NCBI GenBank assembly: GCA_012521815.1
Contig: JAAYLR010000134.1
Coordinates: 1 to 40,644, forward strand
Direction: 5' to 3'
DNA: 40,644 nt
DNA from: Acidobacteriota bacterium
GTDB taxonomy: Bacteria; Acidobacteriota; Thermoanaerobaculia; Multivoradales; JAGPDF01
Made by a program: the position numbers and the translations under genes. The notes beneath the pieces were generated by a model, which was given only the letters and a program-made list of their open reading frames with translations, did not search any database and had not been told where the DNA came from. Within the stretch, counting starts at the first letter, position 1; every line of letters begins with the position of its first letter. This document shows positions 20,446 to 25,865 of the stretch, in pieces.

Positions 20446-20947
20446 GACCGGCGTGACCACTCCCGGCACTTATCGCCTCGAGCTCGGCAAGGAGGATTTC
20501 AAGTTCTCCTGCGCCCACTTCACCCTCTTCCCGGACGGCGGCGCCGAGCCGCTCCATGGCCACAACTACCGGGTACGGGTGACGGTCGAGGGCGACCGGC
20601 TCGACGCCCTCGGCATGCTCGTCGACTTCGCCGCGGTCAAGCGCGCGGTGCGCCGGCTCTGCGCCCGGCTCGACGAGCGGGTGCTCCTCCCGCAGGAGGC
20701 CCCGGATCTCGTCTGGGAGCGCCGCGGCGAGGAGGTCGAGGCGCGCTACGCCGGCCGCCGTTACCTCTGGCCCGCTGCCGAGGTGCTCCTGCTGCCGCTC
20801 GCCAACACCAGCGTCGAGCTGCTCGCGGCCTGGCTCTGGCGCGAGCTCGCCCCGGAGCTCGCCGGCTTCCCGGTGCGGAGCCTCGGGGTCTCGGTCGAGG
20901 AGACGCTCGGGCAGGGCTGCCGCTACTCGGCGCCGCTGCCCGGCTGA
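20444..20947 (+). CDS. 6-pyruvoyl-tetrahydropterin synthase / 6-carboxytetrahydropterin synthase family
   Basis: FSCAHFTLFPDGGAEPLHGHNYRVRVTVEG; LANTSVELLAAWLWREL; start ATG 20444 or GTG 20453. Confidence 0.83.
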   Translation: MTGVTTPGTYRLELGKEDFKFSCAHFTLFPDGGAEPLHGHNYRVRVTVEGDRLDALGMLVDFAAVKRAVRRLCARLDERVLLPQEAPDLVWERRGEEVEARYAGRRYLWPAAEVLLLPLANTSVELLAAWLWRELAPELAGFPVRSLGVSVEETLGQGCRYSAPLPG

Positions 20948-22071
20948 GCCTCGTCACCACCCGCGCCGGGAGGCGGGAGCTCCCGGCCCCGCCACGGGGC
21001 GAGCCGCCCCCGGCGAAAGTCGGCGAGCGCGGTGAGGAGGAGCGCCGCGAAGAGCAGTCCCTCGAGCGGTGCTGCGAGCGCCGGCGCGGCAGGGAAGCGC
21101 GCCGAGGTTCGCAGCACGCCGGAGGCGATCGCCGCGAGCGCCCAGAGCAGGCCGGCGGCCGGCAGCGCTCCCGTCGCGAGCAGCACCGTGACGCCGAGGG
21201 CGGGCAGGGCGGCGAAGCTGGCCACGGCACCCGCGAAACCGGCCCGGGAGCCGTAGAGGAGCGCGAGGTTCCGGCGCCACCCCTGCCAGGCGGCCCGGAA
21301 GCCCGGATACATCTCGACCTCCAGCAGATCGAGGGCGCGGAAGAAGCCGGCCCGGCCGCCGGCGGCGACGAGGCGTCGGGCCAGGGTGACGTCGTCGAGC
21401 GCCACCCGGGCGAGCGGTTCGAGACCGCCGGCCGCCGCCAGGGCCGCCCGGCGCACGAGGAGGAACTGGCCGTTGGCGAGCGGGGGCTCGCCCTCCCCTT
21501 CGGCGTACGGCGCCCAGTCGCCCAGGTCGGCGTCGAGGAGCGCGAAGACCGGCGGCGTGAGGAGGCTCGCCCCCCAGCCGGAAACGCGCTGATGCCCGGC
21601 GATCGAGACGAGGTCGAGCGGCCCGGCGGCCGCCGCGGCGTGGGCGCGGGCGAGCAGCTCCGGATGGTGCCGGGTGTCGGCGTCGGTGAAGAGGAGCCAC
21701 TCCGACTCCGCGCCGGCAGAGCCCCGCGCGAGGGCGTGGACCTTGCCGCTCCAGCCGGCGGGCAGGGGACCGGCGGAGGCGAGCGTGAGGCGTCCGCCCG
21801 CCTTCGCCGCGAGCCCGGCCACGAGCGCCGCGGTCGCGTCCCGGGAGCCGTCGTCGACGACCCGGAGCTCGAGCGGCGCGCTCTGGCCGAGCAGGCTCTC
21901 GACGCAGGCCACGACCTGCGCGGCCTCGTCGCGCACCGGCAGGATCGCGAGGGTGGACGGCGGGGTGGCCGGCGCGGCCGGCGGGAGCGCCGGCGCGGCG
22001 GCCCGGGCGCCCGCCAGACGCGAAGCGAAGGCGAGGAGCGCGACGCCGGCCAGCGCGGCGGCGAGGAGCAA
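20923..22071 (-). CDS. Family 2 glycosyltransferase (HpnB-like)
   Basis: AILPVRDEAAQVVACVESLL, VVDDGSRDAT, GWSGKVHALARG, LLFTDADTRH; TM helices; TTG start 5 nt after the upstream stop. Confidence 0.8.
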   Translation of the reverse strand: MLLAAALAGVALLAFASRLAGARAAAPALPPAAPATPPSTLAILPVRDEAAQVVACVESLLGQSAPLELRVVDDGSRDATAALVAGLAAKAGGRLTLASAGPLPAGWSGKVHALARGSAGAESEWLLFTDADTRHHPELLARAHAAAAAGPLDLVSIAGHQRVSGWGASLLTPPVFALLDADLGDWAPYAEGEGEPPLANGQFLLVRRAALAAAGGLEPLARVALDDVTLARRLVAAGGRAGFFRALDLLEVEMYPGFRAAWQGWRRNLALLYGSRAGFAGAVASFAALPALGVTVLLATGALPAAGLLWALAAIASGVLRTSARFPAAPALAAPLEGLLFAALLLTALADFRRGRLAPWRGRELPPPGAGGDEAQPGSGAE

Positions 22072-22076
22072 CGGCG

Positions 22077-22310
22077 CTACCCTTCGAGGAGGGCGCGCAG
22101 CGCGGCGACGACCTCGCCGGGCTCGGCGTGCCGCCCGCTGTCCCAGCGGGAGAAGACGAGCTGGCCGTCGAGCCGGACGTCGAAGATCCCGTTCCGGCCG
22201 CCGATGAGCTGCGGCTCGAGGCCCGTCTCCCGCATGATCTCGGCCGCCAGACTGACGGCCCGGGGCAGGTGGTTTCAGGCCACGCAGTATTCGATCGTGA
22301 GCTTCGGCAT
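22077..22310 (-). CDS. SelW/Rdx-family selenoprotein candidate; UGA at 22277..22275 read as Sec
   Basis: Manual translation: MPKLTIEYCVAUNHLPRAVSLAAEIMRETGLEPQLIGGRNGIFDVRLDGQLVFSRWDSGRHAEPGEVVAALRALLEG*. CxxU at the redox motif, RBS agaggg, SECIS-like hairpin directly downstream. Confidence 0.85.
22242..22260 (-). promoter_or_regulatory. Bacterial SECIS-like hairpin GGCCGUC-AGUCU-GGCGGCC
   Basis: 7-bp stem (one U.G wobble), 5-nt loop with GU; loop GU is 23-24 nt after the UGA. Confidence 0.75.
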
Positions 22311-22326
22311 TTTCCCTCTCTGGGGG

Positions 22327-23526
22327 TCAGAGCGGCCGGCGTCCGCAGATCGCGCCGGAGTTGAAGAACGGATAGAGGTCGCGGATGCGTTCCAGGTCGG
22401 GCACGAGCTCGACCGGCGCGAGACCGGCGCCGGTGAAGAGGCGCCGCCAGACCTCCGGCGTGAGGAAGCCCGGCTCGGGCCGCCGCTCGGGGTCGAGCTC
22501 GACGCCGACGAACCCCTCCAGCGCGAGAAAGACCATCTCGGCCGCGATCGGCTGGCCGGGGAAGAGGCGGATGCACTCCCCGCCCACCAGCCAGCCGCCC
22601 GGAGCGAGCCGCTCCCGGAGCCGGGCGAGGGCCGCCGGCAGGTCGCGGGCGACGTGCAGGACGTTGACCGCGAAGACGAGGTCGAACTCCCCGGCCGCCG
22701 TCGCGGTGGCGTCGAGCGGGAGGTCGATGTCGAGGGCGGAGAAGGAGAGCGGCACGCCGGGGAAACGGGAGCGCAGCGCCCGCTCCGCCCGCCGCCGGAA
22801 GAAGGTGCTCGGCTCGGTCACCTCGTAGCGGGTGAGGTCGCCGAGCCGGCCGGCCTGCTCGAGCCGGGCGAGGAGCTCCTCGGTGGCGCTGCCCGCGCCG
22901 GCGCCGAGCTCGAGCACCGCGAACCGGCCCGCCGGCGCCCGCGTGAGCGCGGCGACCGCGGCGATCACGTTGTTGATCGCGTAGACCGGATGCCGGTTCG
23001 AGAAGTACTCCCCCCAGAGACCGACGTGCCCGGCGCCGAGGAGCACCTGCTCGCCCCGCACCTCGCCCCGCGCGAGCGGCGGGTAGAGGCCGCCCGCGAG
23101 GTCGAGCAGCTCGAGGCTCGGGGCGATGCCGGGGTCGGTCGCGAGCCCCTGGGCGCGCAGCTCGGCGCGGTGTTCGGAAGGCCACGGTCCGACGGCGCGA
23201 TAGCGCGGCGCGCCGGTCCCGTCCTGCCCCGCGACGGCGAGCACCCCGTCGGCGGCGAGCCGGCGCAGGAGGCCCTGGAGCGCGGGCACGAAGCCCGGCA
23301 CGAAACCGCGCCGCGCCGCGAGCTCGTTGGCCGAGAGTGCGTCCGCGAGCGCCGGCGCGAGGGCGAGCTCGGCGGCGAGCGCGAGCGCCCAGTCGCCGGC
23401 GTACCGTTCGACCAGCTCGACGCAGAGCTGGAAATGCTCGGAGAACGGCTCGGGCGGGAGCTCTCCGAGAACGCCGGCGAGATCGGGGGGAGAGGGCGTG
23501 GCGATGAACGCGGGCATCCCGGTCAT
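22327..23526 (-). CDS. Class I SAM-dependent methyltransferase
   Basis: VLELGAGAGSATEELL, LDIDLPLDAT.AAGEFDLVFAVNVLHVARDL; start may be ATG 23517. Confidence 0.8.
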   Translation of the reverse strand: MTGMPAFIATPSPPDLAGVLGELPPEPFSEHFQLCVELVERYAGDWALALAAELALAPALADALSANELAARRGFVPGFVPALQGLLRRLAADGVLAVAGQDGTGAPRYRAVGPWPSEHRAELRAQGLATDPGIAPSLELLDLAGGLYPPLARGEVRGEQVLLGAGHVGLWGEYFSNRHPVYAINNVIAAVAALTRAPAGRFAVLELGAGAGSATEELLARLEQAGRLGDLTRYEVTEPSTFFRRRAERALRSRFPGVPLSFSALDIDLPLDATATAAGEFDLVFAVNVLHVARDLPAALARLRERLAPGGWLVGGECIRLFPGQPIAAEMVFLALEGFVGVELDPERRPEPGFLTPEVWRRLFTGAGLAPVELVPDLERIRDLYPFFNSGAICGRRPL

Positions 23527-23601
23527 TCTACGCTCCGCCGCGGCCGGAGCCGGGGCTGCGGTGCGCTAAGATCCACGGGCGCCGCCCGCGCTGCCCCGCC
23601 C

Positions 23602-24207
23602 ATGACCGAGATCGAGACGCCCGCTCCCGCCCCGAACGACGCCGACGAGGTGAAGGCCGGGCGGATCGCGAGCCACGTGCGCGCCATCCTCACCGAGCTC
23701 GACCTCGACCTCGACGAGCCAAATCTCCGCGACACCGATCTCCGGGTCGCCAGGCTCTATCTCGAGATGTTCCAGGGCCTGCGCCAGGGCGCCGAGCCCG
23801 CCGTCACCACCTTCCCGAACGACGAGCATTACCGCGCCATGGTCATGGAGCGGCGGATCCCGTTCTACTCCCTCTGCGCCCACCACCTGGTGCCGTTCTA
23901 CGGGCAGGCGCACATCGCCTACATCCCGCGCGACCGGATCATCGGCATCTCGAAGTTCGCGCGGATCCTGGAGTTCTACGCCAAGCGTCCGCAGCTCCAG
24001 GAGCGGCTCACCGAGCAGGTCGCCGACTACCTCCAGGAGGCGCTCCGCCCGCTCGGCGTCATGGTGGTGATCGAGGCGCGCCATCTCTGCGTCGAGATGC
24101 GGGGAGTGAAGAAGCCCGGCGCGGAGACCGTGACCTCCGCGATCCGCGGCGTGTTCCACCAGAAGCAGGTGCGCGAGGAGTTCCTCGACCTCGTGCGCCT
24201 CGACTGA
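23602..24207 (+). CDS. folE: GTP cyclohydrolase I
   Basis: MERRIPFYSLCAHHLVPFYGQAHIAYIP, GISKFARILEFYAKRPQLQERLTEQ, VVIEARHLCVEMRGV. Confidence 0.93.
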   Translation: MTEIETPAPAPNDADEVKAGRIASHVRAILTELDLDLDEPNLRDTDLRVARLYLEMFQGLRQGAEPAVTTFPNDEHYRAMVMERRIPFYSLCAHHLVPFYGQAHIAYIPRDRIIGISKFARILEFYAKRPQLQERLTEQVADYLQEALRPLGVMVVIEARHLCVEMRGVKKPGAETVTSAIRGVFHQKQVREEFLDLVRLD

Positions 24208-24220
24208 TCGGAGAGAGACG

Positions 24221-25291
24221 ATGAACGCCCCTCGCGCCGTGTTCGCCGGTTCCGGGATCGCCGTGCCGCCGCTGGCGATCGACAACGCCACCTTCGCGCG
24301 GGTGCTCGACACCAGCGACGAGTGGATCCGGGAGCGCAGCGGCATCGTCAGCCGCCGCTTCGTCGAGCCCGGGGTCGGCTCCTCGGTCCTCGGCATCGAG
24401 GCGGCGCGCGCCGCGCTCGCCGATGCCGGGATGGAGGCCGGCGAGCTCGACTACATCGTCTGCGCCACGATGACGCCGGATCATTACTTCCCCGGCGTCG
24501 GCACCCTCGTGCAGGAGGGGCTCGGGATCCCGCCGCTCCCGGCGCTCGACATCCGGCAGCAGTGCGCGGGGTTCGCCTACGGGCTCCAGGTGGTCGACGC
24601 GCTGATCCGCAGCGGCCTCGCGCGCAACGTGCTGCTGGTGGGCACCGACGTCCACTCGGCGCTGATGCCGCTCTCGCCGCGGAGCTGGGACGTCCTGCTC
24701 GGCCACGATCCCGGCCCGCTCGACGCCGAGGAGCTCGCCGCCAACTCCCGCTTCCGCCACCTCGTGGTGCTCTTCGGCGACGGGGCGGGCGCGATGGTCT
24801 TCCGCGCCGAGGAGGATTCCGGACGCGGGATCCTCGGCGCCGTGCTCTACGGCGAAGGGGCGCACAAGGAGATCCTCCACGTGCCCGGCGTGGGCTCGGC
24901 GCGGCGTCCGTTCGTCTCGATCGAGCAGATCGCGAACGCCGACGTCGTGCCGGTGATGCACGGCCGGCACGTCTTCCGGCTCGCGGTCACCCGGATGCCG
25001 GAGGCGACCCGCGAGCTGCTCGCCCGCCACGGCTATGGTCTCGACGAGCTCGACCTGCTCGTCATGCACCAGGCGAACCTGCGGATCAACGAGGCGGCGC
25101 AGAAGGCGCTCGGGCTCCCCGACTCGAAGGTCCACCACAACATCTACGAGTACGGCAACACCACCTCGGCGACCCTGCCCCTCTGCTTCCACGAGGCCCG
25201 CGCCGCCGGCAAGGCCCCCCCGGGCTCTCTCGTCGCCTTCACCGCCCTCGGCGCCGGCCTCCACTGGGGAGCGGCGCTGATGCGGGTCTAG
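24221..25291 (+). CDS. fabH: 3-oxoacyl-ACP synthase III family (FabH-like)
   Basis: TSDEWIRERSGI, IRQQCAGFAYGLQVVDALIRSG, LVMHQANLRINEAAQKALGLP, HNIYEYGNTTSATLPL. Confidence 0.88.
   Translation: MNAPRAVFAGSGIAVPPLAIDNATFARVLDTSDEWIRERSGIVSRRFVEPGVGSSVLGIEAARAALADAGMEAGELDYIVCATMTPDHYFPGVGTLVQEGLGIPPLPALDIRQQCAGFAYGLQVVDALIRSGLARNVLLVGTDVHSALMPLSPRSWDVLLGHDPGPLDAEELAANSRFRHLVVLFGDGAGAMVFRAEEDSGRGILGAVLYGEGAHKEILHVPGVGSARRPFVSIEQIANADVVPVMHGRHVFRLAVTRMPEATRELLARHGYGLDELDLLVMHQANLRINEAAQKALGLPDSKVHHNIYEYGNTTSATLPLCFHEARAAGKAPPGSLVAFTALGAGLHWGAALMRV
25251..25291 (+). repeat. Direct repeat copy A (3' end of fabH)
   Basis: gcgccggcctccactggggagcggcgctgatgcgggtctag; 36/41 identical to copy B at 25948..25988. 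Confidence 0.75.
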
Positions 25292-25400
25292 GGCCGGCGC
25301 TCGCCCCGGATCTCGAGCCCGGACTCGCGGCACGTCTCTCCGGGTGACTCGCCGTTCGCGGCGGCTGCCCGAGCGCGGCCGGCGCCCCCTCCGTCGCTCC

Positions 25401-25415
25401 TGACAGCTTCTGTCA
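25401..25415. promoter_or_regulatory. Inverted repeat TGACAG-ctt-CTGTCA, candidate operator
   Basis: Perfect 6-3-6 dyad in the intergenic region upstream of 25485. Confidence 0.45.
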
Positions 25416-25484
25416 CTCCGCCCTGCCATCATCGCCTCGCTCGCGAAAGGAGGCTGCCGTGCGCCGAATCCGTCCCCCCTCGAA

Positions 25485-25865
25485 GTGATCGTCAGAATCG
25501 GAGGTGAAGGAGGCAGCATCGCCCTGCTCGGCGTCCGCGACACGCAGGGCGGCTGGCACTACTGCCTCGGCCGCGACGAGCGCTCGCTCGCCGATTTCCT
25601 CCCGGACGATTTCGACCCCGCCCTGCTTCGCAGCCGCTCGGGCTGGGTCGCGAGCTGGGAGGAGGCGCTCGCGCGCCTCGACCGCTACCCCTGGTACCGC
25701 CTCTACCCGGTCGCGCTCCACGCGGAGTTCCGCGAACGGATCCTCGCCGCCGTCGCCGACTGTGCCGCGAAGGAAAGCCGCGAGCGCGCTGCCGACATCG
25801 CTGAGACTTGGGAGTGGGCCGACCGCGACACCCGCTGGGGTGGGAGCGATTCGGAACGGGAATGA
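25485..25865 (+). CDS. Hypothetical protein
   Basis: 126-aa ORF, GTG start overlapping the stop of a 9-codon ORF; conserved-looking WEEALARLDRYPWYRLYPVALHAEFRERI. Confidence 0.65.
   Translation: MIVRIGGEGGSIALLGVRDTQGGWHYCLGRDERSLADFLPDDFDPALLRSRSGWVASWEEALARLDRYPWYRLYPVALHAEFRERILAAVADCAAKESRERAADIAETWEWADRDTRWGGSDSERE

Follow-up and report, generated by a model that had tools for sequence, protein, structure and literature searches.

Our analysis of a 40,644-nucleotide stretch of DNA (the window) from an uncultured member of the Thermoanaerobaculia, phylum Acidobacteriota, indicates that its minus strand almost certainly carries an intact gene for a SelW-like selenoprotein of the Rdx family at 22077..22310. 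The frame opens with ATG at 22310-22308, just behind a Shine-Dalgarno-like GAGAGGG (22314..22320, read directly from the sequence), and encodes 77 residues before a TAG stop. Read from 22310 to 22077, the product is MPKLTIEYCVAUNHLPRAVSLAAEIMRETGLEPQLIGGRNGIFDVRLDGQLVFSRWDSGRHAEPGEVVAALRALLEG. It contains a single in-frame UGA (22277-22275) at residue 12, the second position of CVAU, which is conserved in relatives and which we read as selenocysteine.

The gene lies in the 255-bp gap between a methyltransferase ORF that ends at 22327 and a glycosyltransferase ORF that starts at 22071. A preliminary description, made from the letters of the window, had proposed a hidden gene in this gap with an in-frame UGA at the second redox position of a CxxU motif. 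The sequence, frame, coordinates, UGA position and gap size all proved correct, and the translation places the motif at Cys9-x-x-Sec12. What is new is the lineage; the SelW/Rdx family itself is already known.

When the UGA is read through, the product matches Pfam Rdx (PF10262), the model suggested in the preliminary description, with E = 2.9e-14 and 53.5 bits (cut-off 22.6). It also matches TIGR02174 CXXU_selWTH with 43.2 bits (cut-off 34.2). The top NCBIfam score, 69.6 bits, is to NF041051 (SelTWH_Campy equivalog), but this falls below the cut-off of 88 for membership, and we therefore place the protein outside the Campylobacter subgroup.

The AlphaFold2 model, for which window and locus proteins were aligned with the UGA entered as Cys, has a mean pLDDT of 94.9. 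It predicts a thioredoxin-like fold with strands at 4-9, 34-38, 43-47 and 50-54 and helices at 15-29 and 64-76, in which C9-x-x-U12 lies between strand 4-9 and helix 15-29. Foldseek returned 23 PDB chains at E <= 0.001; places 1-23 are held by SelW-like or Rdx proteins, followed by thioredoxins, and the SelW-related structure 2fa8 superimposes at TM 0.90 and 1.1 Å. The Rdx-type fold that had been proposed from the sequence pattern is thus the one predicted. Alignment to Cys homologues puts a cysteine opposite the UGA both in the solved structures found by sequence search, SAV_2001 and Atu0228, and in one Acidobacteriota protein with the motif CTQC (L058).

The genome containing the window, a 2.95-Mb fragmented draft that is 98.6% complete, encodes selA (438.8 bits), selB (328.2 bits), selD (323.3 bits) and selC, the tRNA-Sec (71.2 bits; called by ARAGORN as tRNA-SeC with anticodon TCA), all four genes for which a search had been proposed. 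Each of the proposed checks that could be run gave a positive result, and none gave a refuting one. The selD frame (L019, G000:C78) carries a single TGA, in the classical position (CASTGGUAAK), and is itself a selenoprotein gene. It is therefore a second gene of the same genome that points to UGA decoding, in a search for other selenoproteins that covered selD only.

Rdx is present in 147 of 197 relatives. Among the matches listed, almost all have exactly one TGA, and in the 99 distinct genes that we read it always lies within CxxU. The exceptions are the Cys-type gene of G166 (CTQC), partial matches that start past the motif (G185 contig 385 and G122) and G070, whose Rdx match holds a TAG as well as a TGA. 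CxxU is also present in all of another 35 loci, drawn from other genomes (chiefly Gemmatimonadota and Chloroflexi, with one Acidimicrobiia) by search patterns biased toward the HAEPGEVV C-terminus. No relatives were found in the viral contigs scanned, and plasmids yielded only distant rhizobial homologues (35-37% identical).

The orthologue in a relative of the same genus, 'Thermoanaerobaculia bacterium ACI6' (L023, contained in G001:C593), is 77% identical to the SelW-like protein; kinship with this bacterium puts the window in Acidobacteriota. Over the 65 codons past the UGA, 33 are identical, 16 differ synonymously and 16 non-synonymously, with 20 mismatches at third, 11 at first and 8 at second codon positions. 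The UGA and the frame downstream of it are kept in orthologues at every distance, within the genus as well as across the phylum. Given this conservation and the E-value of the Rdx match, the locus is not a chance ORF.

These comparisons also bear on whether a nonsense mutation has left the gene a decaying pseudogene. It does have one in-frame stop, and in the survey of relatives its Rdx score was 45.4 bits against about 57-70 in most of them. However, the frame past the UGA is conserved phylum-wide, third codon positions hold most of the changes relative to the genus-mate, and the fold is predicted with excellent confidence, so that decay of the gene is exceedingly improbable.

Two other kinds of Rdx gene were seen among the relatives. 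Of the genes read from Acidobacteriota, L058 (G166:C75) alone encodes a Cys-type Rdx protein, and this protein resembles the Agrobacterium/Streptomyces type, not a Cys version of the orthologue. Several Acidobacteriota of the same order also have a second, divergent Rdx selenoprotein paralogue (L108:962-1207, L109:1004-1258, L110 on the minus strand and L111:1007-1273), with the motif CVSUGYR or CTSUG... and an insertion ahead of the C-terminal helix; the L108 copy scores above the TIGR02174 cut-off.

The presence of Rdx is associated with that of selA, which occurs in 138 of 147 Rdx-bearing genomes vs 39 of 50 without Rdx (Fisher p = 0.005). Six of the nine genomes with Rdx and no selA have selB above its cut-off, and we read the rest as assembly gaps. 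In the same-genus genome G001 (about 95% complete), no selA was found, and selB was found only as a fragment resembling the C-terminal part; we read these absences, too, as assembly gaps. Another genome, G191, is about 100% complete and combines an Rdx gene containing an in-frame TGA and selB above cut-off with no selA match, which reflects either an assembly gap or an altered Sec pathway.

A SECIS hairpin, absent from the preliminary description, begins 14 nt past the UGA (22242..22260, minus strand). Its 7-bp stem, GGCCGUC/GGCGGCC, encloses the 5-nt loop AGUCU (22253-22249), with GU at 22252-22251. The free energy of the hairpin alone is unremarkable (z about -0.8, range -0.1 to -0.95), as single-sequence folding energy is uninformative in a GC-rich gene, and we set this measure aside in favor of comparative and synonymous-codon tests. 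Since an Ala-rich protein and high GC favor accidental pairing, we redrew synonymous codons from the genes' own codon usage (500 draws; loop of 4-6 nt). Of the 99 distinct genes, 79% have 5 or more base pairs in the stem and GU in the loop, compared with a null mean of 7% and a maximum of 19%. Mean stem pairing is 5.81 of 7, vs 4.70 (sd 0.09) in redrawn genes, and 77% have GGU or AGU at codon +8, vs 8% expected. The stem shows compensatory changes; the pair at position 24-30, for example, is C-G in 71 sequences and G-C in 10.

About a fifth of the orthologues have no perfect GU-loop hairpin under this simple rule; several of these have one stem mismatch, and others have a loop G without GU. 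In Acidobacteriota and Gemmatimonadota the loop GU lies at +26, whereas most Chloroflexi have the hairpin four nt closer to the UGA, with the loop CGUGA and GU at +22 (the shifted orthologues, mostly from Chloroflexi, are L033, L034, L037, L041, L043, L045 and L047-L053). About 100 aligned natural SECIS elements of one gene, in two hairpin positions, offer a testbed for SECIS models and SelB recognition.

If the UGA were a Cys codon (UGC/UGU) misread in sequencing or assembly, the locus would be an ordinary Cys-type Rdx gene. Such proteins exist, as L058 and the solved structures illustrate, and the host genome is a fragmented draft. However, the TGA occupies the same codon in about 100 independently sequenced relatives from several phyla and is followed by the codon-independent SECIS signature. 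An error of this kind is scarcely conceivable, and we retain the reading of the UGA as selenocysteine.

Upstream of the selW-like gene and on the same strand is a class I methyltransferase of 399 residues (22327..23526), which has no specific family match. Downstream, also on the minus strand, a family-2 glycosyltransferase (20923..22071) that is weakly HpnB/CruG-like starts with TTG 5 nt past the selW-like stop. The folE gene for GTP cyclohydrolase I (23602..24207, plus strand) is divergent from the methyltransferase/selW-like pair. Across the order, folE and the selW-like gene point away from each other, either as immediate neighbors about 105-272 bp apart or separated by the methyltransferase, and this synteny supports vertical orthology. 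The methyltransferase is kept in the family and in some other families of the order. The glycosyltransferase follows the selW-like gene within the family; in most relatives outside it, no homologue of the glycosyltransferase was found downstream of the selW-like gene. The neighbors point to no clear pathway. Two further candidates for conserved neighbors, the ORFs 23566-24396(-) and 24059-25543(-), were rejected as antisense shadows rather than genes: opposite the former is folE, and opposite the latter a ketoacyl-ACP-synthase-III-like ORF (24221-25291 +).

Termination at UGA competes with Sec insertion. The UGA could act mostly as a stop that yields an 11-residue peptide. Read-through would then be rare or selenium-regulated, and the main role of the gene would be to switch the glycosyltransferase downstream; the tight spacing before the glycosyltransferase start fits such a role. 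However, most relatives outside the family keep the selW-like gene without the glycosyltransferase, and the full protein sequence is conserved, which makes the switch very unlikely.

For the full-length selenoprotein, strand and spacing suggest cotranscription with the preceding methyltransferase gene and the following glycosyltransferase gene. In standard bacterial Sec insertion, SelB and Sec-tRNA act at a SECIS that immediately follows the UGA (PMC1794560). With the Sec machinery encoded in the host genome, SelB carrying Sec-tRNA(UCA) would bind the SECIS and recognize the GU apical loop, and Sec insertion would replace termination. The predicted 77-residue thioredoxin-like product would present a redox-active Cys9-x-x-Sec12 ending its first strand. 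By analogy with its family, it may act as a thiol/selenol oxidoreductase, forming a selenenyl-sulphide, with a thiol reductant recycling the protein; our best inference for its role is that of a CxxU thiol-selenol oxidoreductase.

The gene shares CxxU, a small Rdx domain, a SECIS directly past the UGA and dominance of the Sec form with the bacterial SelW-like genes of Zhang and Gladyshev (PMC1088965, PMC1794560, PMC2398784), and differs only in lineage, Thermoanaerobaculia/Acidobacteriota, with its methyltransferase/folE/glycosyltransferase neighborhood. In the GOS ocean data, SelW-like proteins with CxxU made up the largest prokaryotic selenoprotein family, with 427 sequences (PMC2398784). 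The part of the 2006 survey by Zhang and Gladyshev that covers Acidobacteria gives three families and four selenoproteins, with no SelW-like one named there. Campylobacter jejuni SelW (CJnc60), an Rdx selenoprotein of about 80 residues likewise missed by annotation, is translated in full past its UGA, as seen by Ribo-seq and proteomics/mass spectrometry (PMC11955535); the gene described here differs from it in falling below the NF041051 cut-off. Agrobacterium Atu0228 (2fa8) and Streptomyces SAV_2001 (3dex) share the fold (TM about 0.9) and are 33-38% identical where they align, but carry Cys instead of Sec and are slightly longer.

SelW genes of Epsilonproteobacteria were completely missed by annotation (PMC4607533), and our analysis corrects such a gap for an Acidobacteriota-wide small selenoprotein that is broken by a standard ORF finder. 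The Sec form of SelW-like proteins has been proposed as ancestral on the grounds that organisms using Sec have few Cys forms or none (PMC1794560), and the near-absence of Cys forms in the relatives here agrees with this proposal. We tentatively suggest, while thinking it somewhat doubtful, that Sec is in effect obligatory for SelW/Rdx in the phylum, with deep retention, very few replacements of the orthologue by a Cys form, and a SECIS that slides four nt in frame (+26/+22) while keeping its five-nt GU loop. If this is true, SelW would be a major reason for these bacteria keeping selenium decoding.
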